Source: Nocardioides luti
GTDB lineage: Bacteria; Actinomycetota; Actinomycetes; Propionibacteriales; Nocardioidaceae
DNA length: 64,000 bases
Assembly (NCBI RefSeq): GCF_014212315.1
Contig: NZ_JACKXE010000001.1
Coordinates: 2,108,001-2,172,000, forward strand
Direction of reading: 5' to 3'
A model generated the notes under the pieces. The model worked only from the letters and a program-made list of their open reading frames with translations, searched no databases and was not told the DNA's origin. Of this stretch, positions 9,852 through 41,648 are shown piece by piece. A program made the translations under genes and the position numbers. The first letter of the stretch is position 1. The number at the start of each line of letters is the position of its first letter.

Positions 9852-11159
9852 TCAGTCGCGGCGGCGCGCCAGCACGGGCCGCAGCAGCAGCGCCAGGACC
9901 AGCACTCCCCCGCCCAGCAGGCCCCACCAGACCGCGTCGTGGCGGGTGCCGGCGAGGACGTCCTTCTCGGCAGCGGGGGCGCTCGCCCGGATCCGCTCGG
10001 TCTGCTGCGCCGTCGTGGTCACGGCGCCGCCGCGGGTCGGGTGCAGGGGGCGGGTGAGCGCCTCGAACGGCTGGACCACGCCCTTGCCCTGCAGCGTCGT
10101 CGGCACGTCGAGGGTGCCGTCGGCGGTGCGCTCGAGGCGGGCGACCACCTGCGCCGCGGTGTCCTTCGGGAAGTGCGCGCGCAGCAGGGCGACGAGCCCG
10201 CTGACCTCGGCGGCGGAGTACGACGTGGCCGGCTCGGCCAGCCGGCAGGTGCCGCCGTTCAGCGCGACGGACACCGACATCGCGGAGGGCGCGGCGACGT
10301 CGGTCTGGGAGTTGGCCACGACGATCTGCTTGGGGTCGGGGTACTGGTCCTGGCCGGCCGTCGTCGTGCTCACCGCGAGCACGTCGGAGTAGCCCGCCGG
10401 CCAGACGAACTTCGCGGCGTCCTCCCCGGGCCCGACCTCGGTGCCGGTGTCGCTGTTGAACGCCTCCCACAGCTCGTCGGCCTCGTCGCGCGGCCGGTTG
10501 CCGGACGAGGCCACGAGCACGACGTCGGCCGCCACCACGCGGCGTACGGCGCGCTCGAGCCGACCGTCGAGGTCCGGGGTGACCGCGAGCGACACGTTCG
10601 CGACGCCGATGTCGAGGCGGCGGGCGTTGTCCGCGACCCAGTTCAGCCCGGAGATCAGCGCCGGCGTGCTGACGCCCACCTCGCCCGAGGACTGGTCCGG
10701 CTGGTCGGCGTCGAAGACCTTGACGTCGATGATCCGGGCTCCCGGTGCGATGCCCGTCGGCTTGCCGCCGGGGCGTGCGCCCGCCGCGATCAGGCCGGCG
10801 ACCTCGGTGCCGTGCGGGTCGGCGGGGTCCGTGCCGAGCGGCTTGGAGGTGAAGGACATGCCGTCGACCACCGTCATCAGGTTGCTGCGCCGCGAGACGC
10901 CGGCGTCCAGCACGGCCACGCCCACCCCAGCCCCGGGCTTCTCCCCCAGGGAGTCGAGGTAGTCGTAGACCCGGTCCATGCCGAGCAGGCCCAGCGGCAC
11001 GCTGTCGCTGTCGTCGGTGCCGGGTGGGTCGTCGAGGGTGAGGTCGTCACAGAGGAAGTAGTCGCCGTCGGCGGCGTACGTCGGCGCCGGCAGCGCGACC
11101 AGCCCCGACCCCGCGAGCACCGCGGCGAGAGCGAGCGCCGGCAGGGTGCTCAGCTGCAC
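9852..11159 (-). CDS. mycP: Type VII secretion mycosin (subtilisin-like serine protease)
   Basis: Mycosins are membrane-anchored proteases that stabilise the ESX secretion complex and cleave substrates. The GTG at 11159 has AAGGA 6 nt upstream and gives a 435-residue protein with a signal peptide (residues 1-29). The triad reads Asp85 (VAVLDAGV), His116 (DPHGTEVAG) and Ser313, with the oxyanion Asn in SSGN. A C-terminal membrane helix (WWGLLGGGVLVLALLL) ends in RRRD. The Ser motif is ATSYSAAEVSG where GTSxAxP is usual, so the Gly and Pro are changed. The start overlaps the end of eccB by 10 nt. Confidence 0.92.
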   Translation of the reverse strand: MQLSTLPALALAAVLAGSGLVALPAPTYAADGDYFLCDDLTLDDPPGTDDSDSVPLGLLGMDRVYDYLDSLGEKPGAGVGVAVLDAGVSRRSNLMTVVDGMSFTSKPLGTDPADPHGTEVAGLIAAGARPGGKPTGIAPGARIIDVKVFDADQPDQSSGEVGVSTPALISGLNWVADNARRLDIGVANVSLAVTPDLDGRLERAVRRVVAADVVLVASSGNRPRDEADELWEAFNSDTGTEVGPGEDAAKFVWPAGYSDVLAVSTTTAGQDQYPDPKQIVVANSQTDVAAPSAMSVSVALNGGTCRLAEPATSYSAAEVSGLVALLRAHFPKDTAAQVVARLERTADGTLDVPTTLQGKGVVQPFEALTRPLHPTRGGAVTTTAQQTERIRASAPAAEKDVLAGTRHDAVWWGLLGGGVLVLALLLRPVLARRRD

Positions 11160-12634
11160 GGCTGGTCCTTCGTGGCGGCGGGCGGGCAGAGCGCGTCGTC
11201 GATGGAGAGGTTCACGCCGGGCACGAACAGCTCGACCCAGCTGTCCGGGACGACCGCCACCGGGTAGCTGCCGTAGCCCAGCCGGGAGGCGGCGTCGGCC
11301 CCGACGAGCTGGTAGCTGGTGCCCTTGGCGTCGATCACGAACGGGGAGCCCTCGTCGGCGGAGTCCCAGTCGCCCGAGAGCACGTAGGCACCCCGGCCGG
11401 GGTCGACCCGGGGCGGGTTCGGGCCCGGCGGCAGGTCGGCGGCCGAGGCCTCCTCCGTGGGATCGGTGGCCAGCTGGACCGTGGGCGCCGAGCCGGACTC
11501 GGCGGTGAGCACGGCGCACTCCTGGCCGTTGACGGGCTCCAGCGTGCCCGCGGGCCAGCGGGCGGCGGCGTACTGCGGCTCCTCGCGCGTCACCGTGGGC
11601 GGCGCGTCCTGGGCGAACTCCACGGGGCCGGGCCCGCTGCGGCTGCCGTCCGAGGACGCCGTGACGAAGCCGTCCGGCGTGCGGGTGTGGCGGTAGACCC
11701 CCAGCGGGAACGGCGCGATCACGCTCGGGCCGCTGTCGGTGAGGAGCAGGGACTGGGTGGTGCCGTCGGGCAGGGGGTAGGTGACCAGGTCACCGATCCG
11801 CGCGCCGGGCGGCACGTTGCCGCTGTTGCCGTAGGAGACGGGGTCGCCGAAGCCGGTCAGCTCGAAGCTCGTGAAGTCGAGGTCGCCGCCCGCGGGGAAC
11901 AGCGCGAGCCAGTCGTCGGAGACGTGCGCGGCGCTGGCGCGGGGAGGGAGCCCGAGCTCGGCGAGCAGGTTGTCCTGGTCGCTCTGCTGGGCGTTCTTCG
12001 GCTCCTGCGGCAGCTCGTAGCGGTAGGCGCTGGCGGTCTGGCCGACGTCGGCCGTGCCGACCGCGATCACGTAGTAGGTGCCCTTGCTCTGCACCACGAA
12101 GCCGCTGCCGGTCAGGGGACGGACCACGTCGTCCTGGGTGACGTCGACGCGGATCCCGGTGCGGTCGTCGATGCAGGCGGTCCAGCCGCTGTCGATGAGC
12201 AGGGACGGCGTCGGCAGGGTGTTCGGCGCCCCGAGGATGCCGAGGTCGCCACCGATCTTCTGCTGGTCGATCGTGTCCTGGGAGACGACCTTGGGGGCGC
12301 TGTAGGAGTCCAGCATCAGCCGCGCCGAGGTGGTGTTGAGCACCGGCCGCAGGACGGGGTGCTCGCTCTCGGTGAGGATGACGTAGTTGGCGCCGGTCTC
12401 CTTGGAGACGATCAGGCCGGGCTTGTTCCAGTCGTCGGGGTCGCGCGGGGCGAAGATGCCCGCGATGGCCGCGCCGGCCACCAGCAGCACGGCGAGGGCG
12501 AGGCCGCCGACGATGGTGCGGCCGGGGCGGGTCGGCTCGACCTCGCGCCCGCCGGGGGCGCCGGAGACGAACGCGGTGACGAGACGACGACGGCTGAACG
12601 CGTAGGCCTCGACGAGGTCCTTCTTGGTGGCCAT
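11150..12634 (-). CDS. eccB: Type VII secretion membrane protein EccB
   Basis: EccB is a core component of the ESX inner-membrane complex with a large periplasmic region. The 494-residue protein has the typical N-terminus (MATKKDLVEAYAFSRRRLVTAFVSG), one membrane helix around residues 42-62 (VGGLALAVLLVAGAAIAGIF), and a long extracytoplasmic domain. It lies 5 nt after eccD and overlaps mycP, forming an eccD-eccB-mycP operon downstream of a terminator hairpin. Confidence 0.95.
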   Translation of the reverse strand: MATKKDLVEAYAFSRRRLVTAFVSGAPGGREVEPTRPGRTIVGGLALAVLLVAGAAIAGIFAPRDPDDWNKPGLIVSKETGANYVILTESEHPVLRPVLNTTSARLMLDSYSAPKVVSQDTIDQQKIGGDLGILGAPNTLPTPSLLIDSGWTACIDDRTGIRVDVTQDDVVRPLTGSGFVVQSKGTYYVIAVGTADVGQTASAYRYELPQEPKNAQQSDQDNLLAELGLPPRASAAHVSDDWLALFPAGGDLDFTSFELTGFGDPVSYGNSGNVPPGARIGDLVTYPLPDGTTQSLLLTDSGPSVIAPFPLGVYRHTRTPDGFVTASSDGSRSGPGPVEFAQDAPPTVTREEPQYAAARWPAGTLEPVNGQECAVLTAESGSAPTVQLATDPTEEASAADLPPGPNPPRVDPGRGAYVLSGDWDSADEGSPFVIDAKGTSYQLVGADAASRLGYGSYPVAVVPDSWVELFVPGVNLSIDDALCPPAATKDQPCS

Positions 12635-12639
12635 CGCGC

Positions 12640-13992
12640 TCAGCCCCGGATCGAGGAGAAGATGCCGACGGCCAGGACGAGCAGCGGCAGCAGGGCGAGC
12701 AGCGCGACCGACTCGGCCACGTCACCGAAGCGGCCCCGGCGCACCGAGGGAGTCGACGGCAGCAGCGTCGCGGCCAGGAGCACGGCACCGGTCACGGCGA
12801 GGGCGACGGCCGCCGTCGGCCGCCAGTCCGGGTGCATCCAGAGCATGGAGACGGCCACCGAGACCAGCCCGAGGATGCCGGAGACGAGCCCGACGAGCAC
12901 CTCGGACCCGGTGCGGTACTGCCGGGTGCGCAGCATGACGACCAGCGAGGCCATCACGGCGAGCAGGGTGCCGGAGACGCCGAGGGACACGGCCAGCGGC
13001 GCGATCAGCACCAGTAGCAGGCCGACGGTCGCCGACACGGCGACCAGGATCTCGTGCGCCACGCGGGCGTCCGCACGGACGCGGTGCGGGTCGATGTCGT
13101 CGGGGTCGGCGGTGATGTCCTCGGTGCCGTAGAGCTGGTCCACGGCGGTGCCGGTCGCGCCGAGCGCGAGCCACGGGAAGACGCTGCCCGCCATCACGAC
13201 GAGCACGAGCGCGATGGTCAGCACGACGGCCGGGTCGAACTCGGCGGCCCGCATGACCAGGCCGGTGGCCAGGAAGATCGCACCCACGACCACGGGCGGG
13301 ATGACCAGGGTGCGCCCCTCGCCCAGGCCCACGAGCGCGACCAGGCCGGCGATGAGCGCGCCGGCGCCCGCGCTGGCGACCGGCAGGCCGTAGAGGCCAC
13401 CGTCGGAGGCGAGCATCAGCCCGGCCACCGCGGCGTAGAACGAGCCCATCCAGGCGACGGCGACCGCGGCCTCGGGCTCGCGCTGGGCGCGGGACAGCAC
13501 CACCGCGCCGGTCACGAGGGCGGCGGCGACGACGGAGGCGGCGACGGCCGCGAGCGTCGAGCCGCGCTGGATGAGGAGGGCCACGGCGCCCAGCGCCATC
13601 AGCAGACCCGCGGCCGAGAGGGCGGTACGCCGGCCCGAGGCCGGCTCCCAGGGCTTGAGGTCGCGCTCCACGACGTCGGTCATCGCCTCGACGACGTCGT
13701 CGTACACGCGCGGCGGCTCGTCGTCGATGCCGGCGGTGACCGTGAGCAGCCCGCCGTCCTCGACGCCCTGGATGGTCAGGCCGGCGTCGGTGGCGAGCTC
13801 ACGTCCCTCGGAGGTGACGAGGTGGTAGCCCCCGAAGACGGTGGCCGCGTCGAGCAGGCCGACGCTGCGGGCGAGCTCGGGCACGAGCTCCGCGACCGGC
13901 ACGGCGCCGGGCAGCACCAGGTCGACGCGTCGGGTCCCCGACGCCACCGTGACACGCACCAGACCGGATGCGCTGACGGGCGCCTGAGTCAT
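12640..13992 (-). CDS. eccD: Type VII secretion integral membrane protein EccD
   Basis: EccD dimers form the membrane vestibule of ESX systems. The 450-residue protein has a ubiquitin-like N-terminal domain (LVRVTVASGTRRVDLVLPG, residues 10-95), then about eleven hydrophobic helices from residue ~125. The ATG follows GGGGGAGAG. It is the first gene after the 14-bp terminator hairpin at 14080-14114, so it likely has its own promoter in 13993-14079. A second, diverged protein of the same layout lies at 16770-18140. Confidence 0.93.
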   Translation of the reverse strand: MTQAPVSASGLVRVTVASGTRRVDLVLPGAVPVAELVPELARSVGLLDAATVFGGYHLVTSEGRELATDAGLTIQGVEDGGLLTVTAGIDDEPPRVYDDVVEAMTDVVERDLKPWEPASGRRTALSAAGLLMALGAVALLIQRGSTLAAVAASVVAAALVTGAVVLSRAQREPEAAVAVAWMGSFYAAVAGLMLASDGGLYGLPVASAGAGALIAGLVALVGLGEGRTLVIPPVVVGAIFLATGLVMRAAEFDPAVVLTIALVLVVMAGSVFPWLALGATGTAVDQLYGTEDITADPDDIDPHRVRADARVAHEILVAVSATVGLLLVLIAPLAVSLGVSGTLLAVMASLVVMLRTRQYRTGSEVLVGLVSGILGLVSVAVSMLWMHPDWRPTAAVALAVTGAVLLAATLLPSTPSVRRGRFGDVAESVALLALLPLLVLAVGIFSSIRG

Positions 13993-15988: not shown

Positions 15989-16285
15989 TCAGATGTCGAA
16001 CGATGCGGCGCCGCGCTGGTCGGCGGCCTTGTACTCGGCGTTCGACTGGTAGACCGTCTTGCTGGTCTCGTCGAGCAGGTCGCGCATCTCCTGGATGGCG
16101 CCGTCCCACTTGGCCTTGGCCTGGGTGTAGGCCGTCTGCGCCGAACCCGTCCAGTCGCTGCGCAGCGGCGCGAGCTCCTGCTCGAGGCGGTTCAGGCGGT
16201 CGTCGATGTCCTTGACCGTGCGGTACATGTCCTCCGCAGCGGTGTCGAGACCGGCGTGGTTGACGCGAAGTCCGTCGAGGCTCAT
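15989..16285 (-). CDS. WXG100-family secreted protein (EsxA-like)
   Basis: A 98-residue helical hairpin with W45-T-G47 at the turn and Y85KAAD89, a YxxxD/E type VII export signal, near the C-terminus. It is the expected substrate or partner of the EccC ATPase. I chose the ATG at 16285 because AGGAG lies 8 nt upstream; a GTG at 16294 is too close to that site. It is 29 nt after the other WXG100 gene, forming the usual bicistronic heterodimer pair. Confidence 0.92.
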   Translation of the reverse strand: MSLDGLRVNHAGLDTAAEDMYRTVKDIDDRLNRLEQELAPLRSDWTGSAQTAYTQAKAKWDGAIQEMRDLLDETSKTVYQSNAEYKAADQRGAASFDI

Positions 16286-16314
16286 TTCAGTCACTCCTGT
16301 TCCTGGGTCGTCGG

Positions 16315-16638
16315 TCAGCCGCCGAGGCGGCCGGCCGTCCGGTTGTAGTTGGCCGACTGGGCCTCGTCGGTGTTGATGTTGTCCTTCTCGGTGGACGTGA
16401 GCGACGCCTCGAACTCGTTGAGCGCGTTCGTGATGACGTTCTGCTTCTCCGTCCACGCCTGGTGGAGCGTGAAGAAGGCGGTGCCGCCGGCGCCGGCCCA
16501 CTTGCCCTTCAGGCCCGAGATCTGGCCGTCGAGCTTGCGGCTGAAGCCGTCGAAGTCCTTCTTCGCGTCGACCACCATGCCGGCGGCCTTGGTGAGTGTC
16601 TTTTCACCCTGTCCCATTTCGGGAGCGTTGTTCGACAT
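16315..16638 (-). CDS. WXG100-family secreted protein (EsxB-like)
   Basis: A 107-residue protein with two long helices and W47-A-G49 at the turn (LKGKWAGAGG). It lacks an obvious YxxxD/E signal, which its partner supplies. The ATG follows GGAAGGA. It is the first gene of the substrate operon, preceded by a 131-bp gap with an AT-rich stretch (GATATTTCT on the minus strand) that probably contains its promoter. Confidence 0.92.
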   Translation of the reverse strand: MSNNAPEMGQGEKTLTKAAGMVVDAKKDFDGFSRKLDGQISGLKGKWAGAGGTAFFTLHQAWTEKQNVITNALNEFEASLTSTEKDNINTDEAQSANYNRTAGRLGG

Positions 16639-18140: not shown

Positions 18141-18190
18141 GGCCACTCCCCCCGGACCCGTGGGCGCCCGCCGCCCGACGAGAGGCAGGG

Positions 18191-18954: not shown

Positions 18955-21900
18955 GTGAGTACGACGCTTCGCGGGGCACGGGTCGATGCGCCCGAGATGC
19001 CCTCCGGCAAGATCGTGCTCCAGCCGCCACCGGAGATCGAGCCCAACGAGGGCGCCGCGGGCGTGCTCATGAACGCCATCCCGATGCTGGGCAGCCTGGG
19101 CTCCATCGTCCTGGTCGCCTCGATGGGCGGCGGGTCCGGCGGTCGCGGCTACATCGCGGCCGGCATGTTCCTCTTCGCCACGCTCGGCTTCATCATCGTC
19201 CAGCTGGACCGGCAGAAGAAGCAGCGCACCCAGCAGGTGACCGGGTCGCGCACGGAGTACCTCCGCTACCTCGGCAACGTCCGCAAGGTGGCCCGCGAGG
19301 CCGCCGACCAGCAGCGCAAGGCGCTGACCTGGCACCACCCCGAGCCCTCCTCCCTCCCCGCCCTGGCCGAGGAGCGCTCGCGGCTGTGGGAGCACGCGTC
19401 GTCCGACCCGAACTTCCTGCACGTGCGGTACGGCGTGTGCGCGCAGCCGCTCTCGCTCGAGCTCGTCCCGCCGGAGAGCGCGCCGATCGACCAGGTCGAC
19501 CCGGCCGCCGCCTCCGCCCTGCACCGCCTGCTCGTCGTGCACCGGCTCCAGCCCGACCTGCCGGCCTCGATCGACCTGCGGGCCTTCGACCGCGTCGAGC
19601 TGTGCGGCGACGAGGACCCGGCCCGCTCGCTGGCCCGCGCGATGATCTGCTCGGCCGCCACCTTCCACTCCCCCGAGCACCTCGCGATCGCGGTGCTCTC
19701 CTCGGAGCAGAACCTCGCCCACTGGGACTGGATGAAGTGGCTGCCCCACGCGCTGAGCCAGCGGCAGTCCGACGCGGTCGGCCCGATGCGGATGGTCTCG
19801 ACCAACCTCGCCGACCTGGCCGCGCTGCTGCCGCCGGACCTGAGCGACCGGCCCCGCTTCGGCGCCGACGAGCGCCCCGCGACGCCGCACATCCTGCTGG
19901 TGATCGACGGCGGCACGCTGCCGCCCGGCAACCACGTCGTCCCCCCCGACGGCCTGCACGGCGTCACCCTCCTCGACCTCCCGGCGCGCTGGGACGAGCT
20001 CGAGGACGCCTCGCGGCTGCGGCTGCAGCTCGACGCCGAGCCGGCCCGCGACGGCCGCTACCCGCTCAGCGCGCTGCGGCTGCGCGAGGACACCGTCCGC
20101 GGTCGCGCCGACCAGTGCGACCTCGCGACGGCCGAGGCCTTCGCCCGGCGGCTGACGCCGCTGCACACCATCGCGTCCGGCGCCGCCGAGAACACCACCG
20201 GCGAGATCACCGGCCCGACCGACTTCATGGAGCTGCTCGCCCTCGGCGACGTGCGCACCTTCGAGCCCAGCGCCGCCTGGCGCCAGCGGCCCGCCCGCGA
20301 CCGGCTGCGGGTGCCGATCGGGCTCGGCGAGGGCGGCCAGATGATCCACCTCGACATCAAGGAGTCCGCCCAGCAGGGCATGGGCCCGCACGGCCTGGTG
20401 ATCGGCGCGACCGGCTCCGGCAAGTCGGAGTTCCTCCGCACGCTGGTCCTCGGCCTCGCGATGACGCACTCCCCCGAGCAGCTCAACATGGTGCTCGTCG
20501 ACTTCAAGGGTGGTGCGACCTTCGCCGGCATGTCCGAGATGCCGCACGTCTCGGCCGTCATCACCAACCTGTCGCAGGAGCTCACGCTCGTCGACCGCAT
20601 GCAGGACGCCCTGTCCGGCGAGATGGTGCGCCGCCAGGAGCTGCTGCGCGAGGCCGGCAACTTCGCCTCGATCCGCGACTACGAGAAGGCCCGCGCCGCC
20701 GGCGAGGACCTCGAGCCGATGCCGTCGCTGTTCGTCGTCGTCGACGAGTTCTCCGAGATGCTCTCGGCCAAGCCCGAGTTCATCGACCTCTTCGTCGCCA
20801 TCGGCCGCCTGGGCCGCTCGCTGGGCCTGCACCTGCTGCTCGCCTCGCAGCGCCTCGAGGAGGGTCGCCTGCGCGGCCTCGAGTCGCACCTGTCCTACCG
20901 GGTCGGCCTGCGCACCTTCAGCGCCGGCGAGTCGCGCTCGGTGCTCGGCGTGCCGGACGCCTACGAGCTGCCCGCCGTGCCCGGCCTCGGCTACCTCAAG
21001 CCCGACCAGTCCACGCTGCTGCGGTTCAAGGCGGCGTACGTCTCCGGGCCGCCGTCGGGCCGCTCGCCCGTACGCCGTGACGAGGGCGGCCACCTGCGCG
21101 GGATCCTGCCGTTCACGATCTCCGAGGTGCACACGCTCGAGGTGGCCGAGCCGGAGCCCGAGCCGACCCCGACGCCCCAGCAGGGCGACCAGGAGACGCT
21201 GCTCGACATCGCGGTCGACCACATGATCGGCCACGGCCCCGAGGCCCACCAGGTCTGGCTGCCGCCGCTGGACGTCCCCGACACGCTCGACGAGCTGATG
21301 GGCGACCTCGTCGAGGACCCCGAGCTCGGTCTGGTCTCGCCGCAGTGGCGCAACCTCGGCGGGCTCGTGGTGCCGCTCGGCACGGTCGACCGGCCGCGCG
21401 AGCAGCGCCGCGACACCCTCACCGTCAACCTCAGCGGCGCCAGCGGGCACGTGGCCGTCATCGGCGGCCCGCGCAGCGGCAAGAGCACCCTGCTCCGCAC
21501 GATCGTCGCGAGCATGTCGCTGACGACCACGCCCAAGGAGACGCAGTTCTTCGTCCTCGACTTCGGCGGCGGCACCTTCTCGCCGCTGGCGCGGCTGCCG
21601 CACGTCGCCGGCGTGGGGTCGCGCTCGGAGCCCGACGTCGTACGACGCATCCTCGCCGAGGTGCAGGGCATCGTGGACCGCCGCGAGGCGTACTTCCGCG
21701 CCAACGGCATCGACTCGATCGAGACCTACCGCTCCCGCCGGGCCGCCGGCCGTGCCGACGACGGCTACGGCGACGTGTTCCTCATCGTCGACGGCTGGAG
21801 CACGCTGCGCGCGGACTTCGACGACATCGAGATGGAGCTCCAGCAGCTCGCCACGCGGGGCCTGACCTTCGGCCTGCACATCGTGGCCGGCGCCGCGCGC

Positions 21901-22935
21901 TGGGCGGACTTCCGCGCCGCGATGCGCGACATGTTCGGCACCCGGCTCGAGCTGCGGCTCGGCGACCCGATGGACTCCGAGATCGACCGCAAGATCGCCG
22001 CACTCGTCCCGACCGGTCGCCCCGGTCGCGGTCTGGTGCACGGCAAGCTGCACTTCCTCGCCGGCCTGCCGCGCATCGACGGCGCGCCGGACGCCGACAC
22101 CCTCGGCGAGGGCGTGGACGACCTGATCAAGCGGGTCTCCGCCGCCTGGCACGGCCCGGCCGGCCCCAAGCTGCGGCTGCTGCCCGAGCGGATCGACCTC
22201 GACGCCGTACGCGCCCAGGCGCAGCCGGCCGACGACGACACCAAGCTGCTCCTCGGCATCAACGAGAAGGAGCTCGCCCCGATCGCGCTCGACGTCGACG
22301 CCGAGCCGCACCTGCTCGTCTTCGGCGACGGGCAGTCCGGCAAGAGCGGGGTGCTGCGGACCTACCTGCAGGAGATCATGCGGACGCGCACGCCGGCCGA
22401 GGCGCAGATCGTGGTCGTCGACTACCGGCGCTCGCTGCTCGGCGAGGTGCCCGACGAGTACCTCCTCAACTACCTCACCAACGCCACCCAGGCGCAGCCG
22501 GCGATCCGCGACCTCGCGACGTACCTCGAGAACCGGATCCCCGGGCCCGACGTCACGCCCGACGAGCTGCGGAACCGGTCGTGGTGGTCGGGGGCAGAAG
22601 TCTTCGTCGTCGTCGACGACTACGACCTGGTCGCGACCCAGCAGAGCTCGCCGGTCCAGACGCTGCAGCCGCTGATGGCCCAGGCGCGCGACACCGGCCT
22701 GCACATCGCGATCGCGCGCCGCTCGGGTGGTGCGTCGCGTGCGCTCTACGAGCCGGTGCTGCAGTCGATGCGCGACCTGGCGATGCCGGGCCTGCTGCTG
22801 TCCGGCTCCCCGGACGAGGGCCCGCTCATCGGCAACCAGAAGCCGCAGCCGGCGCCGCCCGGCCGGGGCCGCCTGATCACCCGCGACCGGGGCATCGAGG
22901 TCGTGCAGATGGCCTGGACCGACTCCACGCTCTGA
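18955..22935 (+). CDS. eccC: Type VII secretion ATPase EccCa/EccCb fusion
   Basis: EccC is the motor that recognises WXG substrates and drives export. The 1326-residue protein starts at a GTG after AGGGGG. It has two membrane helices near residues 35-85, then three FtsK/SpoIIIE ATPase domains. Walker A motifs are at 484-491 (GATGSGKS), 837-844 (GGPRSGKS) and 1124-1131 (GDGQSGKS). Only the first domain has a full Walker B with catalytic acid (VVVDE, E598). The second reads IVDGW and the third VVDDY. This fits the family, where domain 1 hydrolyses ATP and domains 2-3 regulate and bind substrate. EccCa and EccCb are one chain here. Confidence 0.97.
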   Translation: MSTTLRGARVDAPEMPSGKIVLQPPPEIEPNEGAAGVLMNAIPMLGSLGSIVLVASMGGGSGGRGYIAAGMFLFATLGFIIVQLDRQKKQRTQQVTGSRTEYLRYLGNVRKVAREAADQQRKALTWHHPEPSSLPALAEERSRLWEHASSDPNFLHVRYGVCAQPLSLELVPPESAPIDQVDPAAASALHRLLVVHRLQPDLPASIDLRAFDRVELCGDEDPARSLARAMICSAATFHSPEHLAIAVLSSEQNLAHWDWMKWLPHALSQRQSDAVGPMRMVSTNLADLAALLPPDLSDRPRFGADERPATPHILLVIDGGTLPPGNHVVPPDGLHGVTLLDLPARWDELEDASRLRLQLDAEPARDGRYPLSALRLREDTVRGRADQCDLATAEAFARRLTPLHTIASGAAENTTGEITGPTDFMELLALGDVRTFEPSAAWRQRPARDRLRVPIGLGEGGQMIHLDIKESAQQGMGPHGLVIGATGSGKSEFLRTLVLGLAMTHSPEQLNMVLVDFKGGATFAGMSEMPHVSAVITNLSQELTLVDRMQDALSGEMVRRQELLREAGNFASIRDYEKARAAGEDLEPMPSLFVVVDEFSEMLSAKPEFIDLFVAIGRLGRSLGLHLLLASQRLEEGRLRGLESHLSYRVGLRTFSAGESRSVLGVPDAYELPAVPGLGYLKPDQSTLLRFKAAYVSGPPSGRSPVRRDEGGHLRGILPFTISEVHTLEVAEPEPEPTPTPQQGDQETLLDIAVDHMIGHGPEAHQVWLPPLDVPDTLDELMGDLVEDPELGLVSPQWRNLGGLVVPLGTVDRPREQRRDTLTVNLSGASGHVAVIGGPRSGKSTLLRTIVASMSLTTTPKETQFFVLDFGGGTFSPLARLPHVAGVGSRSEPDVVRRILAEVQGIVDRREAYFRANGIDSIETYRSRRAAGRADDGYGDVFLIVDGWSTLRADFDDIEMELQQLATRGLTFGLHIVAGAARWADFRAAMRDMFGTRLELRLGDPMDSEIDRKIAALVPTGRPGRGLVHGKLHFLAGLPRIDGAPDADTLGEGVDDLIKRVSAAWHGPAGPKLRLLPERIDLDAVRAQAQPADDDTKLLLGINEKELAPIALDVDAEPHLLVFGDGQSGKSGVLRTYLQEIMRTRTPAEAQIVVVDYRRSLLGEVPDEYLLNYLTNATQAQPAIRDLATYLENRIPGPDVTPDELRNRSWWSGAEVFVVVDDYDLVATQQSSPVQTLQPLMAQARDTGLHIAIARRSGGASRALYEPVLQSMRDLAMPGLLLSGSPDEGPLIGNQKPQPAPPGRGRLITRDRGIEVVQMAWTDSTL

Positions 22936-32001: not shown

Positions 32002-32451
32002 ATGTACGGCGACACCAGCGTCATCCGCGCCCTCGCCCGCGACCTGCGCGAGCAGGCCGCCGACATCCGCACCGAGGCCGACCGGCTGGTCGGCCAGGCG
32101 GACGCCGTCCACTGGAAGGGCCTGGCCGCCGACGCGATGCGGCACCGCACCCGCGAGCGGGCCGCGGCCCTGCGCCGCTCGGCCGGCCTGCACGAGGACG
32201 CTGCCGACGCGCTCGACCACCACGCGCACGAGGTCGACCGCCTCAAGGACCTGATCGCCGCCATCGAGCGCAAGGTGCACGGGCTGATCGAGGGCGCGCG
32301 CGACCGGCTGGCCGACCTCGGCCACGGCCTCGTCGACGGGCTCCGCAAGGTCCTGCCCGACGCCGGCGACCAGCTGCTGGACCGCTTCGTGCCCCCGCCG
32401 CCCGGCAACAAGGCCTGGCTCGACGTCGACGTCCCGGGGCTCGGCCGGTGA
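32002..32451 (+). CDS. WXG-type helical protein, module A
   Basis: The 149-residue protein starts MYGDTSVIRALARDLREQ and has W38-K-G40 at the turn between two helices, like WXG100/EspC-type secretion targets. A second helical half and a Pro-rich tail (FVPPPPGNKAWLDVDVPG) follow. The paralogue at 36423 keeps MYGDT, the W-x-G at the same residue number, and the same PPPxxxxxxWLxVxxPG tail. An AGGAGGAG ribosome site precedes the ATG. The next gene starts in GTGA overlap. It is probably a type VII substrate or partner protein. Confidence 0.75.
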   Translation: MYGDTSVIRALARDLREQAADIRTEADRLVGQADAVHWKGLAADAMRHRTRERAAALRRSAGLHEDAADALDHHAHEVDRLKDLIAAIERKVHGLIEGARDRLADLGHGLVDGLRKVLPDAGDQLLDRFVPPPPGNKAWLDVDVPGLGR

Positions 32452-33446
32452 CCCGGGTCTCGATCCGGCTCGACGGCACGCCGGCGCCGTCCCCCGGGCT
32501 GCTCGCGCGCGTGCCGCGGCGGGTCCGGCTGTCCCGGCAGGCGGTCGAGGCGCTCGCCGACCGCACCGGCACCCCCCTGCCGTGGTCGGCGTCGGCCACC
32601 GCGGAGCCGTCGCGCACCGAGCGGAGCCTGGGCCCGCAGGTGCCCACGCCCCGCGGCGGCGACGCCGCCACCTCCGACCCCGATCCCCAGCCCGACGCCG
32701 CCACCTCCGACCCCGATCCCCAGCCCGGCGACGGCACCGACCCCGAGGCCGAGCTCCGTGAGGCACGGCTGCTCACCGCCGACGGCCAGCCGCACCCGGA
32801 GGTCGCCGGCGCGCTCGCCGTCTTCGGCGCCCCCGAGGCGCTCGTCGACGTCGACCTCTCCGTGCGCCGCAACCAGGCCGCGAGCGGCTTCGCCCAGGTC
32901 CGCTCGTGGCAGCGGCTGCGCGCCGGGCGGGTCACCACGATGGCCACCGCGGGTGGTGCCGTCGAGCTCGGCTGGTTCGACGACGACCTCTGGCAGGTCG
33001 ACCTGGCGCGCACCGTGACCGTCACCCGGCCGCGCACCACCGCCCGCGCCCCCGAGCAGGTGCTCGACCTGCCGCACGAGCTGCTCCTCGGCTCCGGGGA
33101 GGCGCTCCGGCTGCACCGCGGCGACGTCCTCGCCGAGCTCGTCGCCCGGCACGCGGGCAGCGTCTTCGCCGACGACGGCGACCTGCCCCTGGGCCTCGCC
33201 GGCACCGACGAGCAGGTGCGGCTGCTCAACACCAGCGCGCTGGGCCGCCTGCGCACGGTCGTCTCGGGCCTGGGCCCGACCGGCGCGCGGAAGGTCGGCT
33301 GGGTCAGCTGGCTGCTGTTCCCCGACGGGTGGCGTGCGCTCACGCCGTACTCCTCCGGCGGCGTGGCCCGGGTCCGCATCCACCCCGTCGAGCCGCTGCG
33401 GCTGGGCGTCGACGTGGCCGCCCTCGTGACGGGGGTGCGCGCATGA
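32448..33446 (+). CDS. EspG-like putative type VII chaperone, module A
   Basis: The 332-residue protein has the EspG order of features. The N-terminus has VRLSRQAVEALADRTGTPLPW. A middle ALAVFGAPEALVDVDLSVRR...SWQRLRAGRVTTMA segment is followed by ELGWFDDDLWQVDLAR. The end has VGWVSWLLFPDGWRALTPY. EspG proteins bind cognate PE-PPE substrates in the cytosol and hand them to EccC. Residues ~72-94 contain DAATSDPDPQP twice, from a 33-bp direct duplication at 32661-32726. It overlaps both neighbours by 4 nt. The EspG link is a pattern judgment, not a measured homology. Confidence 0.6.
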   Translation: MTRVSIRLDGTPAPSPGLLARVPRRVRLSRQAVEALADRTGTPLPWSASATAEPSRTERSLGPQVPTPRGGDAATSDPDPQPDAATSDPDPQPGDGTDPEAELREARLLTADGQPHPEVAGALAVFGAPEALVDVDLSVRRNQAASGFAQVRSWQRLRAGRVTTMATAGGAVELGWFDDDLWQVDLARTVTVTRPRTTARAPEQVLDLPHELLLGSGEALRLHRGDVLAELVARHAGSVFADDGDLPLGLAGTDEQVRLLNTSALGRLRTVVSGLGPTGARKVGWVSWLLFPDGWRALTPYSSGGVARVRIHPVEPLRLGVDVAALVTGVRA

Positions 33447-34900
33447 GCACCGAGCCGCACCCGGTCCCGATCACGGGCGTCACCGGCGGGTCCGAGGGCG
33501 TCGAGGCGACGTACGACGCCGTGCTGGCCCTCGCCGCGACGTACGACACCGCCGGCAACCAGATGCGCGACTGGGCCGGGCGCGGCGGCCGGACGCTGAC
33601 CAACGGCGACCTCGTCGAGTCCGCGATCCTCTCCCCGATCAGCTTCGCCGAGGCCGAGGCCTCGGTGATCGCCGCGACGACCGGCCCCGACGGCGTCCTG
33701 GTCGAGTCCCTCGGCTGGGAGACCGACGCGATCCTGATCCGCGTCGTCGTCCGCGTCTTCCGGGAGACCGACGACCTGGCGCACGGCACCTTCGAGGTCG
33801 TCGACTACCTCGTCGGCCGGATGATCGGCTTCACCCTCGTCGTCTCCGCGCCGGCGCTGCTGGCGACGGCCCTGACCGCCGGCCCCGTGGCGTACGTCGT
33901 GTGGCAGCACCTCCCCCCGGCCCTCCAGCAGCAGCTCGAGCGCGACGCGGCCGGCGCCGGCGCGGCCCTCGAGGACTGGCTGGCCGAGCACCCCGAGGTG
34001 CTGCAGCACCTCATCAACGGCGGCGGTGGGCTGCTCGACGGCCTCTGGGACGGCACCACCCCGCTGGTGCCCGGGGGTCCGTTCGGCCTGCCGTCCTTCA
34101 CCCCCGACACGGAGTCGGCGGCCGGCCTGCTCGCGGCGCTCTTCGGCCCGGACGGCGACCCCGTCGTCTCGACGACCGACCTCACGACGCCCAGCGGCGG
34201 CACCCAGCCGGGCAGCCTCGCCGACGTCGTCACCCACCTCGGCGAGACCAACGACCTCGACAACGGCACCATCGAGATCCAGACCATCGACGACGGCCAG
34301 GGGCACGTGCGGCACATCGTCTACCTCCCCGGCACCGACGACCTCACCACGATGCCGTGGACGCAGGACGGCGACGTGCGCGACATGGCCACCAACTACC
34401 TCCTCATCAGTGGCCAGGACAACGCCTACCTCGAGGGCATCCGGCTGGCGATGCAGGAGGCCGGCATCCAGCCCGACGACCCGGTGCTGCTCGCCGGGCA
34501 CTCCCAGGGCGGGATGGAGGCCGCCGCGCTGCTGAGCAACGACAGCGGCTTCCACGTCACCAACGTCGTGACGGCCGGCGCCCCGACCGCGCAGGTCGAC
34601 GGCTTCCCGCCCGGCACGCACGTGCTCTCCCTGGAGAACCAGGGCGACGTCGTGCCGCTGCTCGACGGCGAGGAGAACCCGGACTCGCCCCAGCAGGTGA
34701 CCGTGCACTTCGACGACCAGGGCTCGAGCATCGGCGACAGCCACGGGCTCGACCACTACGCCAACGGCGCCGCCGCGGTCGACGCGTCGACGGACCCCTC
34801 GATCGTCGAGCAGCTGCAGAGCCTGCAGGACAACGGCTACCTCGGCGCGGGCGACGGCAGCGTCTCGAGCCAGGTCTTCGAGATCACCCGCGGCCCCTGA
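33443..34900 (+). CDS. Lipase-fold alpha/beta hydrolase, module A
   Basis: The 485-residue product has a helical N-terminal region (residues ~20-200, with a hydrophobic patch near 125-150) and a C-terminal alpha/beta hydrolase domain. The nucleophile elbow is G352-H-S354-Q-G-G357. The likely acid is D402 (NQGDVVPLL) and the base H434 or H438 (GDSHGLDHY). No classical signal peptide is present, so export would need the type VII route. ATGA overlap couples it to the EspG-like gene. Likely an esterase or lipase acting outside the cell; the substrate is unknown. Confidence 0.75.
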   Translation: MSTEPHPVPITGVTGGSEGVEATYDAVLALAATYDTAGNQMRDWAGRGGRTLTNGDLVESAILSPISFAEAEASVIAATTGPDGVLVESLGWETDAILIRVVVRVFRETDDLAHGTFEVVDYLVGRMIGFTLVVSAPALLATALTAGPVAYVVWQHLPPALQQQLERDAAGAGAALEDWLAEHPEVLQHLINGGGGLLDGLWDGTTPLVPGGPFGLPSFTPDTESAAGLLAALFGPDGDPVVSTTDLTTPSGGTQPGSLADVVTHLGETNDLDNGTIEIQTIDDGQGHVRHIVYLPGTDDLTTMPWTQDGDVRDMATNYLLISGQDNAYLEGIRLAMQEAGIQPDDPVLLAGHSQGGMEAAALLSNDSGFHVTNVVTAGAPTAQVDGFPPGTHVLSLENQGDVVPLLDGEENPDSPQQVTVHFDDQGSSIGDSHGLDHYANGAAAVDASTDPSIVEQLQSLQDNGYLGAGDGSVSSQVFEITRGP

Positions 34901-34942
34901 GCGCCGTACGCCGTCGGCACACCCCGCCGCAGCGGCGTTGCC

Positions 34943-36229
34943 TCAGAGCCCCGCGACGAGGCTCCGCGCGACGAACCCGTTGCGCACCCGCTGGGGGTGG
35001 TCGCCCACCGAGACGGTCCGGGTGACCCGGCCGGTCCGGTAGGAGATCTTCGAGACCTGGTCGGTCCCGCTCCAGGAGATGTAGCAGGTGCGGCCGTTCG
35101 CGCTGGGGGTCACCCAGTACGGCTTGCCGCCCTCCTTCTTCAGCAGCTTGCCGCGCTTGAACGTCCGTGCGTCGACGACCGTGGCGTAGTCCGACATGGT
35201 GCCGGCGACGCAGATCTTCGTGCCGCGCGGGTTCATGGCGATGCCGTGGTGGGCGGAGTCGAGGAGGTACTGCTCGCGCGGGGTGTCCTTGACGAGGTTC
35301 GGCAGGTGCTTGACCCGGACGATCTTCCCGCTGGCGCGGTCCAGCGCCACGAAGCCGTGGAAGAACGACAGCTGGAAGTAGAACGTCTTCTCGTCGGGCG
35401 ACAGCGTCATCGGCCGCACGGCCGTGCTGACCTGTTCCATGCCCCGGTCGTCGAGCGCCTTGCGCAGGTCGTAGCGCCGCTCGATCTTGAACGTCCTGGC
35501 GTTGACGATCTGCAGCACCCGCTCCTGCTTGGTGTCGTCGCCCTCGGGCTGGTCGACGGGGCTGTAGACCATGCCGATGCTCGCGTGCAGGATCCGCCGC
35601 CCGCCGTCGATGAAGACGTTCTCGTGCGGGGAGCCGCCGGAGGGGAACTGGCCGACCTCGCTGCCGTCGCGCACCCGCAGCACGTGCACGACGTTCGCGG
35701 TCGAGGCGCTGACGACCACGCGCTTGCCGTTGGGCGAGATCGCCATGTGGTCGGAGCGGTAGCCCGCGACCGGGAAGCGCCAGAGGATCTTCTTGGTCTC
35801 CAGGCTGATCGCGACCACGTCGGCGAAGGACGGGCGGGACACGATCAGCCGGGTGCCGTCGTTGGAGGAGTACATGTCGTCCACGAACTGGTCGTGGCCC
35901 TCGCCGATCGCCTCGCGGACGGCCAGGAAGTAGGCCAGCCGGTCGGGGTTCGTCGAGATCTCCATCATCCGCTCGTCGTAGTCGGGGATGACGTTGATCC
36001 GGCCGAGGCGCTTGAAGGTGCCGGGGGCGAGCACGTCGGCGGTCCCGTCCCAGTTGTTGCCGACGAAGACCGCGCGACGCACGTCGCCGTCGGGCGTCTG
36101 CCCCTCGACCGCCGTGGCCGGGCCGCCGGTCAGCAGGATCCCGAGCAGCAGGGGCACCAGGCCGGCCAGCACGGCGAGGCCGGCGGTCGGTCGTGCGGCA
36201 CCCCGGCAGGGGGTCGGGACTTGCGACAT
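34943..36229 (-). CDS. Secreted YncE-like beta-propeller protein
   Basis: The 428-residue protein has a signal peptide (residues 1-~40, ending near GGPATAVEG). Repeated blades follow with SPNGKRVVVSAS, SPDEKTFYFQ, NPRGTKICVAG and TPSANGRTCYIS, typical of YVTN/YncE-type propellers. The ATG at 36229 has GAGAGGTGG seven bases upstream. It lies on the opposite strand between the two type VII modules, convergent with module A and divergent from module B. A binding role at the cell surface is plausible. No catalytic signature is seen. Confidence 0.8.
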   Translation of the reverse strand: MSQVPTPCRGAARPTAGLAVLAGLVPLLLGILLTGGPATAVEGQTPDGDVRRAVFVGNNWDGTADVLAPGTFKRLGRINVIPDYDERMMEISTNPDRLAYFLAVREAIGEGHDQFVDDMYSSNDGTRLIVSRPSFADVVAISLETKKILWRFPVAGYRSDHMAISPNGKRVVVSASTANVVHVLRVRDGSEVGQFPSGGSPHENVFIDGGRRILHASIGMVYSPVDQPEGDDTKQERVLQIVNARTFKIERRYDLRKALDDRGMEQVSTAVRPMTLSPDEKTFYFQLSFFHGFVALDRASGKIVRVKHLPNLVKDTPREQYLLDSAHHGIAMNPRGTKICVAGTMSDYATVVDARTFKRGKLLKKEGGKPYWVTPSANGRTCYISWSGTDQVSKISYRTGRVTRTVSVGDHPQRVRNGFVARSLVAGL

Positions 36230-36422
36230 GGGTCCACCTCTCGACGGGCGGCACGGCGCCGCTCCCCCGGGCAACGACCGGGACCACGGCGCGGTTACGG
36301 CGTGTGCCGCCCCGCTCCGGCTCCGGTCGGACCCGGTCTGGTGGGCCCGATTGTGCACCCCCCGGCGTTTCGCGGCACCCGATTGCGGGAAGGGGCCGAG
36401 GACCCCCCGAAGGACGTGAGGC

Positions 36423-36866
36423 ATGTACGGCGACACCGACGTGATGCGGAAGCGAGCCGCCCAGCTGCGCGAGCAGGGCGTCGACATCCGCGCGATGGCC
36501 GACCACCTGGTCGCCCAGACCGAGGGCATCGGGTGGTCCGGACGCGCCGCGGAGTCGATGCGCGAGCGGGTCCGCGACCGCGCCGCCCACCTGCGGGAGG
36601 TGGCGGCCGGGCACGAGACGGCCGCCGAGTCGCTCGAGAAGCACCTCCTGGAGGTCGACCTGCTCAAGGAGTCGATCGCCAGCACCGAGCGCCGGGCGGG
36701 CTCGATCGTCGCCGACGCCCGCACCCGGGTGGCCCGCGTCGACGCGCACGACGACCCCGACGGCGTCCGCCGCGAGGCCGACCCCGGCGACCGCGCCCTC
36801 GCCGCCTTCACCCCGCCGCCGAGCGGCCACCGCGACTGGCTCGCGGTCGAGATCCCGGGACTCTGA
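36423..36866 (+). CDS. WXG-type helical protein, module B
   Basis: The 147-residue paralogue of the module A protein starts MYGDTDVMRKRAAQLREQ, has W38-S-G40, and ends FTPPPSGHRDWLAVEIPGL. The helices carry regular charged heptads, consistent with a dimer. Conservation is highest in the first 45 residues and in the tail, suggesting those parts contact the secretion machine or the EspG-like partner. The stop is 1 nt before the next ATG. Confidence 0.75.
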   Translation: MYGDTDVMRKRAAQLREQGVDIRAMADHLVAQTEGIGWSGRAAESMRERVRDRAAHLREVAAGHETAAESLEKHLLEVDLLKESIASTERRAGSIVADARTRVARVDAHDDPDGVRREADPGDRALAAFTPPPSGHRDWLAVEIPGL

Positions 36867-36867
36867 C

Positions 36868-37803
36868 ATGCCGACCATCGACCTCAGCACGCCTCCGCCC
36901 CCGCCGGCGGGACTGCTCGACGCGCTGCCGCGCCGGGTGTCCCTGACGCTGCCCGAGCTCCGTCTCGTCGCCGAGCGCGCCGGCGGCGCCCCCCTGCCGT
37001 TCGACCTCGTCGACGGCGGCGCGCGACCGGGTGGGAGCGCCCTGGACGGCCGCCTCGGCCAGAGCCGCGGCACGGCCGAGACCACGGCGTACGCCGCCGC
37101 GCTGGACGCCCTGCACGACCCCGAGACCTCGCTGACGCGTCGTGGCCTGCTCACCGGCCGGACCGTCGACGACGGCCTGCTCGGCGCGGTCGGCCTGCTG
37201 GCCACCCCCAGCGTGGCGCTCGACCTCGACGTGACGGTCGGAGGCGTGCAGGCCAAGGCCTGGCACCGCCAGGACGGGGCCGCGGTGGCCACGCTCGCCA
37301 CCGTCGACGGCATCGTCTTCGAGCTGGCCTGGCTGCCGACCGCACTGTGGCCCGGCGAGCTGGCCCGCACCACGGTCGTGCCCGAGGACGTCACCCTGCA
37401 CGAGTCCGCCGTCCCCTCGCTGGTGACGCTGCCCTTCGAGCTCGCCGACGCCGCGGGCGAGGCGCTGCGCACGGGGCGCTCCGACCTGGTCCCCGTGCTC
37501 GCCGCCCAGCACCACGGCCAGGTCGTCGACGGCACCGGCACGCTGCTCGGCGACGCCGACGTCGTGGGCCTGCTGACCGCGGTCGCCCACGAGTCCCGCG
37601 GCCGGCTGCGCGCGCTCGTCGCCGACGTGTCCGGCAGCGAGACCACCGTCGTCGGCGTCGTGTCGTGGGTGTTGCTGGCCGACGGCTGGCGCTCCCTGCG
37701 GCCGCACGAGGTGGACGGCGTGCAGCGCGTCGAGCTCCGACGGGTCCAGCCCAACGACCTCGCCGCCGACCTGGCGCCCGTGCTCGCGGAGGTCGTCGGA
37801 TGA
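36868..37803 (+). CDS. EspG-like putative type VII chaperone, module B
   Basis: The 311-residue protein matches the module A copy in order and length. It has RRVSLTLPELRLVAERAGGAPLPFDL at the start, RRGLLTGRTVD, LLATPSVALDLDVTVGG, TVDGIVFELAWLPTALWPGELART, and VVSWVLLADGWRSLRPHE near the end. These follow the EspG pattern better than the module A protein does. It overlaps the hydrolase-like gene by 4 nt. Expected role: cytosolic chaperone for the WXG-type or hydrolase-like partner. Confidence 0.62.
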   Translation: MPTIDLSTPPPPPAGLLDALPRRVSLTLPELRLVAERAGGAPLPFDLVDGGARPGGSALDGRLGQSRGTAETTAYAAALDALHDPETSLTRRGLLTGRTVDDGLLGAVGLLATPSVALDLDVTVGGVQAKAWHRQDGAAVATLATVDGIVFELAWLPTALWPGELARTTVVPEDVTLHESAVPSLVTLPFELADAAGEALRTGRSDLVPVLAAQHHGQVVDGTGTLLGDADVVGLLTAVAHESRGRLRALVADVSGSETTVVGVVSWVLLADGWRSLRPHEVDGVQRVELRRVQPNDLAADLAPVLAEVVG

Positions 37804-39269
37804 CCGAGACCTCCCGCACCCCCGACGACGCGCGCACCGACCTGCTGGGCGAGCCCAGCGACGCCACCGGCGACCACCGGGCCGACCACCGGGCCGACCA
37901 CCGGGCCGACGGCCCGGCCGAGGGCACGCCGCGGCCGCCGCTCACCGCGGTCGAGGCCGCGGACCTCGCCGACAAGTACGACCGGATGCTCCGCCTCGCC
38001 GACCTCTTCGACTCCTCGGGGGCCGAGATGCGCTCGCGCGCCCGCCTCGGCGCCGAGGTGCTGGGCGACCCGGACGTCGCGGACTCCGCGGAGCTGTCGC
38101 GGCCGACGTACACCCGTGCCGACGAGGACATCCGCTCCGCCACGACCGGCAAGCACGGCCTGCTGACCCGCTCCATCGAGCTCGACGCCGACGCGCTCAT
38201 CGTGCGGGCGACGGTGCTGACCTACCGCTGGATCGACGAGCTCCAGGACGCGGCGTACAAGACCCTCGGCTCGATCGCGGGCCGCGCCATCGGCTACCTC
38301 GCCCCCGAGGTCGCGCTGGGCGGCGCGATCGTCTCCGCGGGGCTGATCGAGACCGACGCGCTCGACCGCGACGGGGTGGCGTCGTACCTCAGCGACCTCG
38401 CCGAGAACAACCCGCAGCTGATGGACCACGTCGCCTCCGGTGGCGGTGGCCTGCTCGACGGGCTGCAGATGCGCTCGCTGCTGACGGTGGGCGTGCTCAA
38501 CGGCGAGACCGGCCGGCTGGCCGCGCGCGGGGGCCTGCGGTCCACGGGCGTCGCCGACTTCGCGCCCGACCCGGGCTTCGCGCTGCGCGACATCGCCGGC
38601 TCGGTCGTCACGGCGCCGCCGGTGTCCGCGACGGACGAGGACGCCCCCGCCGCTCCCGGCGGCGGTCGCGCTCCCGCCGCTCCCGGCACGGCCCCCCGCA
38701 GCATCGAGGAGTTGATGACGACGCTGGGCGAGACCACCCGCAGCGTCACCGTGCAGCGGGTCGCCCCGGGCCGCTTCATCGCCTACCTCCCGGGCCCCGA
38801 CGGCGGCGGCAGCCGCCGGCTGCGGCTGGTCGGCGGCGACGCCTCCGGCTACGCCGCCCAGGTCGTCCGCACGCTCGAGAAGGCCGTCGCCGACGAGGCC
38901 GGCGCCCGCGTCATGCTCGTCGGCTCCGCCCGCGGCGGCGTCACCGCGGCCGAGCTCGCGGCGGTGCCGGCGTCCTCGTCCTTCAGCATCGAGCACGTCG
39001 TCATCGCCGGTGCCCCGTCCGCCCAGGTCCCGCGGATCCCCGCGGCCACCCGGGTGCTCTCGCTCGAGGACCGCGCCGACCCCGTCGCCCTGCTCGGCTC
39101 CCTCATCAACGCCGGCACCGACAACCGGCTCACGGTCGTCTTCGACAGCGCGGGCGAGCGCGGCGACGCCGCGTACGTCGTGGGCGGCCGTGCCGCCGAC
39201 CGCGCGGAGCACCCCGAGCTGCGGGCGGAGATCGCGCGGATCCAGGAGCTGGGCTACCTCGCGGGGTGA
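37800..39269 (+). CDS. Degenerate lipase-fold protein, module B
   Basis: The 489-residue paralogue of the module A hydrolase keeps the helical N-terminal region, the GGGGLLDGL segment, the strand before the elbow and the HVVIAGAPSAQV region. The elbow reads G375-S-A377-R-G-G380, so the nucleophile Ser is Ala. The acid position (D427) remains, but the HGLDHY segment with the catalytic His is absent. It is likely a non-enzymatic homologue. The N-terminus carries a DHRA repeat from a 12-bp triplication near 37874-37909. ATGA overlap couples it to the EspG-like gene. Confidence 0.75.
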   Translation: MTETSRTPDDARTDLLGEPSDATGDHRADHRADHRADGPAEGTPRPPLTAVEAADLADKYDRMLRLADLFDSSGAEMRSRARLGAEVLGDPDVADSAELSRPTYTRADEDIRSATTGKHGLLTRSIELDADALIVRATVLTYRWIDELQDAAYKTLGSIAGRAIGYLAPEVALGGAIVSAGLIETDALDRDGVASYLSDLAENNPQLMDHVASGGGGLLDGLQMRSLLTVGVLNGETGRLAARGGLRSTGVADFAPDPGFALRDIAGSVVTAPPVSATDEDAPAAPGGGRAPAAPGTAPRSIEELMTTLGETTRSVTVQRVAPGRFIAYLPGPDGGGSRRLRLVGGDASGYAAQVVRTLEKAVADEAGARVMLVGSARGGVTAAELAAVPASSSFSIEHVVIAGAPSAQVPRIPAATRVLSLEDRADPVALLGSLINAGTDNRLTVVFDSAGERGDAAYVVGGRAADRAEHPELRAEIARIQELGYLAG

Positions 39270-40780: not shown

Positions 40781-40781
40781 G

Positions 40782-41648
<867 letters not shown>

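Follow-up and report, generated by a model that had tools for sequence, protein, structure and literature searches.

Two modules of WXG-like, EspG-family and hydrolase genes near an ESX-4-type locus of Nocardioides luti

What purpose is served by two closely spaced copies of the same three-gene set 9-20 kb from a type VII secretion system, and are the two copies equivalent? The question is raised by a 64,000-nucleotide stretch of the 4.5 Mb genome of Nocardioides luti (contig NZ_JACKXE010000001.1, positions 2,108,001 to 2,172,000 of the forward strand; hereafter the window, whose own numbering is used below). It carries two homologous sets on the + strand, at 32002-34900 (trio 1) and 36423-39269 (trio 2), both in the order WXG-like, EspG-family and hydrolase gene. 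We describe here the homology of the sets, the EspG and hydrolase folds of their second and third products, the loss of the active site in one class of hydrolase, the order of the module and its linkage to eccC. The reading that we favor, with a probability of roughly 0.6, is that the WXG-like protein and the hydrolase constitute a composite type VII cargo chaperoned by the EspG-family protein, with the hydrolase being an enzyme in one class (class A, trio 1) and non-catalytic in the other (class B, trio 2).

Composition and paralogy of the two trios

The six genes, with product lengths in amino acids (aa), are as follows.

32002..32451, + strand: trio 1 WXG-like partner P0001, 149 aa, with W38-K-G40 and T7SS_signal, WXG100 and ESAT-6-like profile matches
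32448..33446, + strand: trio 1 EspG-family protein P0002, 332 aa, related to P0005, which is itself modelled with an EspG fold
33443..34900, + strand: trio 1 class A hydrolase P0003, 485 aa, with a helical N-terminal part and a C-terminal alpha/beta hydrolase domain, triad intact
36423..36866, + strand: trio 2 WXG-like partner P0004, 147 aa, with W38-S-G40
36868..37803, + strand: trio 2 EspG-family protein P0005, 311 aa, whose AlphaFold model matches EspG structures
37800..39269, + strand: trio 2 class B pseudo-hydrolase P0006, 489 aa, with Ser replaced by Ala, His lost and an invariant Y142-x3-D146 in the N-terminal part

Identity between the trios is 49% for the WXG-like proteins P0001 and P0004 (E 1e-42), 33% for the EspG-family proteins P0002 and P0005 (E 3e-31) and 30% for the hydrolases P0003 and P0006 (E 5e-40); on sequence comparison the paralogy of the two sets is far beyond chance. 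Genes overlap by 4 nt at three of the four junctions within the trios, the fourth (36866/36868) being a 1-nt gap. An earlier reading of the same DNA from its letters alone (the sequence-only reading) had given these positions, this order, the product sizes and mostly 4-nt overlaps, all of which were borne out. It had likewise noticed in both first proteins the MYGDT start, the W38-x-G40 motif and the PPP...WLxVxxPG end, which we also see (the last as PPPxG...WLxVxxPG); the tail, as PPPxGxxxWLxVxLPGL, is conserved across the genus (window 32400-32451 and 36815-36866, +). Its statement that the third products lack signal peptides holds for the N-terminus of trio 2, while the trio 1 protein has a weak hydrophobic stretch, as judged from hydropathy only. 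The nearest named match is a metagenome-assembled genome of Nocardioides with 81% identity, in which trio 1 is likewise followed by a convergent beta-propeller gene and then by trio 2, of which only the start is present before the contig ends.

The first products are best described as WXG-like, in line with the WXG type first proposed for them. The residue W38 is invariant across 39 aligned relatives, and Pfam profiles recover T7SS_signal in 30 and WXG100 in 18 of these 39, mostly under the curated cut-offs. P0001 itself matches T7SS_signal with E 9.4e-6 (26.1 bits, cut-off 27) and WXG100 with E 0.003. The family profile also recovers the ESAT-6-like chain 3ogi_B (E 3.7e-5), in a list shared with helical designs whose match reflects composition. 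Similarity to PPE proteins is weak (9/39 members, best 4e-5), with PF00823 (PPE) below cut-off in both P0001 (E 0.028) and P0004 (E 0.021) and no PE match in either; the alignment of relatives shows no conserved C-terminal YxxxD/E signal.

We take the middle proteins as members of the EspG family by fold, with sequence support that is remote but real. The AlphaFold model of P0005, built from only four sequences, has a mean predicted local distance difference test score (pLDDT) of 77. Foldseek searches with it recovered 18 matches below E 0.001, every one an EspG structure (best E 2.6e-11). Upon realignment to EspG3 (4w4j_B) the model gave Z 19.0 and a root-mean-square deviation of 3.8 over 243 residues, and the listed EspG entries (EspG3/1/5) span Z 14.9-19, with the next, unrelated chain at Z 3.2. 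At the sequence level PF14011 (EspG) matches 10 of 36 middle-family relatives at E 0.1 or better (best E 1.3e-10), and a blind genome scan with this profile picked out the middle-protein homologue of one genome (G014, locus L045; E 5e-4). Neither window protein reaches the curated cut-off of PF14011 (P0005, E 0.18 and 11.8 bits against 27; P0002, no Pfam match), and a direct PDB sequence match for the family was sought and not found. The hidden Markov model comparison of the family with mycobacterial EspG sequences by hhalign is weak on its own (38% probability), and the assignment was decided by the structure comparison. The EspG-like character given to the middle proteins by the sequence-only reading, which had named the lack of an EspG fold as an outcome that would speak against it, is thereby upheld for the predicted structure of P0005, and an EspG-family gene is encoded here with a type VII locus.

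The C-terminal half of the third products (about residues 250-480) is an alpha/beta hydrolase domain. Pfam assigns PGAP1 to 25 and Lipase_3 to 5 of 30 members, Abhydrolase also being matched in class A; the profile recovers bacterial lipases in the PDB at E 3e-4, and the top structural matches of the hydrolase model are all alpha/beta hydrolases with a modest Z of about 8. The hydrolase part of the earlier "lipase-fold" label is thus confirmed, while "lipase" was a guess beyond what the sequence says.

Hydrolase classes and their association with EspG and EccC

The hydrolases were classified on 105 copies, of which 68 belong to the commoner class B and 37 to class A. By definition of the class, the GxSxGG motif and the His are kept in 37/37 class A copies, and the Asp is present in 30/30 aligned rows; in P0003 the triad is Ser354 (GHSQGG), Asp402 and His434. 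In class B the catalytic His is gone in 68/68, and the Ser is replaced by Ala, Gly or Cys in all but three copies plus one split gene, the latter being divided into two frames in a single genome (G150, locus L066, 4493-6003, -). P0006 has GSARGG in place of GHSQGG and lacks a Ser-Asp-His triad. The sequence-only reading, which missed the loss of Ser and His, had treated the trios as two equivalent effector sets; they are not equivalent, the hydrolase of trio 2 being a dead enzyme throughout the genus.

In the unrooted hydrolase tree class B is a single clade with support 100/100 and a long stem, and has one origin. Class A members from other genera fall outside this clade, and loss of activity is hence the likelier direction. 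The EspG tree also sets the class B modules apart (98/98), and the like split of the two trees fits a duplication of the whole module. Column identity is 53% in class B versus 33% in class A, with class B being sampled over a narrower set of hosts.

The hydrolase is present in 75 of the 86 sampled genomes of the same genus. In the fetched loci 67 of the 68 class B modules have the WXG-EspG-hydrolase order, the remaining one lacking only a recognized WXG gene, and an EspG is encoded in 68/68. Class A occurs as a full trio in 10/37 copies and as a WXG-hydrolase pair in 24/37, and no further EspG of the middle family was found in genomes with class A alone. These counts therefore indicate that EspG belongs with the dead enzyme, while the active one may do without it. 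Over all classified copies 77/105 are in full trios and 24 more in pairs, so that the co-occurrence check proposed earlier did not yield the refuting picture of homologues that mostly stand singly in genomes without EccC: the trio recurs as an ordered module, of whose active version EspG is no fixed part.

Confinement of the trio to this genus was considered and rejected, as loci L120, L121 and L133 have a diverged EspG-like gene between the WXG and hydrolase genes (hhalign probability 97% against the middle family and 92% against EspG; Pfam E 8e-6 in L121). The same order is seen in L178, from another family of the class (E 3e-10). In a second genus (g2, L117-L119) the gene between WXG and hydrolase is without assignment, and distant actinobacterial relatives mostly have WXG-hydrolase pairs.

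The modules are also linked to eccC, as the suggested type VII association would have it. In 60 genomes, 76 hydrolase copies are found downstream of eccC at a distance of 4.4-22 kb (median 9.75 kb), always on the eccC strand. A full-scoring EccC is encoded in 72/75 genomes of the genus with the hydrolase versus 1/11 without it (Fisher p 8.6e-10, not corrected for phylogeny). The syntenic VWA gene that flanks the module is retained in 11/11 genomes without it, so the region itself persists where the module has been lost. In the window the type VII system was correctly placed 9-20 kb away by the sequence-only reading, and comprises the following genes.

11150..12634, - strand: eccB (PF05108, E 6e-52)
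12640..13992, - strand: eccD, with YukD and transmembrane domains (PF19053, E 6e-42; PF08817)
15989..16638, - strand, exact starts not fixed: two WXG100 genes (PF06013 above cut-off)
18955..22935, + strand: eccC, 1326 aa, with three FtsK/SpoIIIE domains

In the EccC tree the window protein groups with those mycobacterial EccCs that have no EspG nearby, at a fork with moderate support (94/89), and is hence taken to be of the ESX-4 type. The locus has a second EccD-like membrane protein (16770-18146, -; PF19053 E 1.1e-10). Adjoining the WXG100 genes is a 433-aa protein (14137-15438, -) with a helical N-terminus, a long Gly/Thr/Pro-rich tail and no Pfam match, which is perhaps a further substrate. 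Another WXG100 gene pair is found about 0.6 Mb off, with no full-scoring EccC nearby (G000:C1:1531128-1531681). A search of the window with one regular expression recovered no subtilase-type MycP signature.

Two other neighbors recur. A VWA_CoxE and MoxR-type AAA pair (39392-41648, -) flanks the module in 64/79 loci with one or two modules; a vWA protein is a component of the recently proposed type VII secretion system T7SSc (PMC11217815). The convergent gene between the trios (34943-36226, -) encodes a beta-propeller-like protein with a hydrophobic N-terminus, whose homologue occupies the same place in L006 and several two-module loci and is rare in class B-only loci. It was considered as an immunity gene and set aside, being present in only 9/17 loci with class A beside class B and also in 4/62 loci without class A.

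A possible export unit and its alternatives

The helical N-terminal part of the hydrolases contains a YxxxD motif that is invariant in 22/22 class B sequences, and the D of a corresponding hydrophobic-xxxD motif is kept in 28/30 of class A. In most class B rows, those in which it could be measured, the motif lies about 83 residues into the helical part, a spacing that resembles that in small type VII substrates. The combination of a WxG on the small protein with YxxxD or hydrophobic-xxxD in the helical part of the hydrolase makes a composite export signal plausible. Each trio would then be a type VII export unit, in which the WXG-like protein and the helical part of the hydrolase form a pair and together make up the signal, the former contributing WxG and the latter Y/F/LxxxD. 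The EspG-like protein would bind and shield this pair in the cytoplasm and pass it to the ESX-4-type EccC encoded upstream, with the C-terminal hydrolase domain as the exported cargo. In type VII systems already described, a bundle is formed by a small helical partner and the helical region of the larger substrate, with WxG at one side and YxxxD/E at the opposite side, and EspG shields the tip of this bundle (PMC11217815, PMC10730906). Trio 1 would supply a hydrolase that is catalytically competent by its sequence, likely an ester or lipid hydrolase acting extracellularly. The pseudo-hydrolase of trio 2, of single origin and present genus-wide with EspG, would most likely have a non-catalytic role such as surface binding, scaffolding or partnership in secretion. 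Thus, of the substrate-chaperone-effector sets originally proposed, the protein families, their order and the eccC linkage stand and the equivalence of the sets does not; the roles, like complex formation, secretion, the order of steps and the extracellular function, are what we infer.

Several observations weigh against this reading. The N-terminal half of the hydrolase is predicted to be helical with very low confidence (pLDDT of about 30-40), too low to lend support to a WXG- or PPE-like hairpin, and the YxxxD motif sits within a generally conserved stretch, so that its conservation is not specific. Both P0001 and P0004 fall below the curated Pfam and NCBIfam cut-offs (PF06013/TIGR03930: P0001 18.1/22.2 bits against 27.3/44.85; P0004 lower). 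No EspG is recognized by profile beside 27/37 class A copies. Further, the module is absent from one genome that encodes a full-scoring EccC (G139), and two (G162, G203) have a class A pair beside the VWA gene without a full-scoring EccC; these exceptions limit the claim of EccC linkage, part of which could be plain synteny.

Of the alternatives, the one that fares best, though we consider it doubtful, is that the pseudo-hydrolase with its WXG-like and EspG partners is a part of the export machinery or its regulation rather than a terminal effector. PPE68 of ESX-1, which is reportedly needed for the export of other substrates, offers a model for such a role, and it would suit the nearly core status of class B, which is present in most genomes with this EccC and always has an EspG, and its higher column identity. 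However, the full-scoring EccC of G139 manages without the module, which is therefore not strictly needed. It is unlikely that the trio is intracellular or membrane-bound and not exported, with the EspG-like protein merely a folding chaperone and the proximity to eccC a conserved synteny. The overall synteny of the region with its VWA/MoxR neighbors would accord with this, as would the hydrophobic stretch in the N-terminal part of class A and some class A pairs that are remote from eccC or whose genomes lack the usual EccC. Yet genomes with a lost or diverged EccC lack the module but retain the VWA neighbor, 76/76 near copies are on the eccC strand, and we know of no EspG or WXG fold outside type VII export. 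Finally, pseudoenzymes often regulate their active paralogues and both modules are adjacent in 16 fetched loci, but that trio 2 is an immunity factor or regulator of trio 1, with the pseudo-hydrolase binding or competing with the active hydrolase, is quite improbable, given that 52 fetched loci hold class B and no class A, that 21 have only class A, and that an antidote would not persist genus-wide without its toxin. A toxin-immunity pairing was accordingly rejected as the main explanation, since each class is widespread without the other.

Relationship to known type VII substrates and chaperones

To our knowledge few substrates of ESX-4 are known, and we are aware of no description of an ESX-4-type locus with EspG in such a host or of a conserved pseudo-hydrolase as a constant client of EspG. 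Among the papers searched, none names EspG along with Nocardioides or Nocardioidaceae, although this is only weakly indicative of absence. The occurrence of EspG beside an ESX-4-type EccC and a WXG-hydrolase pair in a soil-type actinobacterium provides a system open to deletion and assay with no need for a pathogen, in which active and dead paralogues, paired by nature, serve as a built-in control. That a dead hydrolase and its chaperone have been kept throughout the genus raises the question of what such a fold does outside the cell when it is not an enzyme.

In mycobacteria and related mycolic-acid bacteria, EspG proteins are the textbook partners of PE/PPE proteins. The mycobacterial PE-PPE-EspG sets (EspG1/3/5) share with the trios the EspG fold, a WXG-type and a larger protein alongside, and a nearby eccC; the trios differ in having no PE/PPE, in a cargo with an alpha/beta hydrolase domain, and in their Nocardioides host and ESX-4-type EccC. 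In a survey of ESX clusters espG with pe/ppe was found only in clusters of mycolic-acid producers, ESX-4 elsewhere being without them (PMC4791881). A tentative reading, less likely than not, is that EspG chaperoning was not invented by mycolic-acid bacteria with PE/PPE but is older or was acquired separately, and that monoderm actinobacteria use it in their ESX-4-type systems too; its constant client there would be a dead hydrolase with a structural role or one in assisting export.

The sequence-only reading knew of no description of a lipase-bearing type VII module; lipase substrates of type VII systems are, however, known in LipY and TslA (PMC6402100, PMC10730906), though in other arrangements. 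LipY is a hydrolase exported via ESX-5, and its secretion is lost in an espG5 mutant (PMC6402100). It is a PE-domain-lipase fusion without a dedicated adjacent EspG gene, whereas here partner, chaperone and hydrolase are encoded as an operon-like trio. The TslA/TlaA1/TlaA2 set of the Staphylococcus aureus T7SSb likewise combines a lipase bearing a helical targeting domain with small helical partners (PMC10730906). In TslA, however, the lipase is N-terminal and the helical domain C-terminal, the reverse of the window proteins, and unlike the trios no EspG-fold chaperone has been described for the set. Such a dedicated chaperone, encoded with its substrate, is found in EsaD/EsaE (PMC11217815), where the cargo is a nuclease and the system a T7SSb of Bacillota. 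The WXG-hydrolase gene pairs of other Actinomycetota (L178-L186) have the same hydrolase family and an adjacent WXG-like gene, but are mostly without a recognizable EspG, L178 and the above-mentioned L120, L121 and L133 having a diverged EspG-like middle gene. Thus, lipase cargo and EspG chaperones are each already known from LipY, TslA and EsaE, and what seems new in these loci is an EspG at an ESX-4-type locus together with a conserved pseudo-hydrolase as its client.
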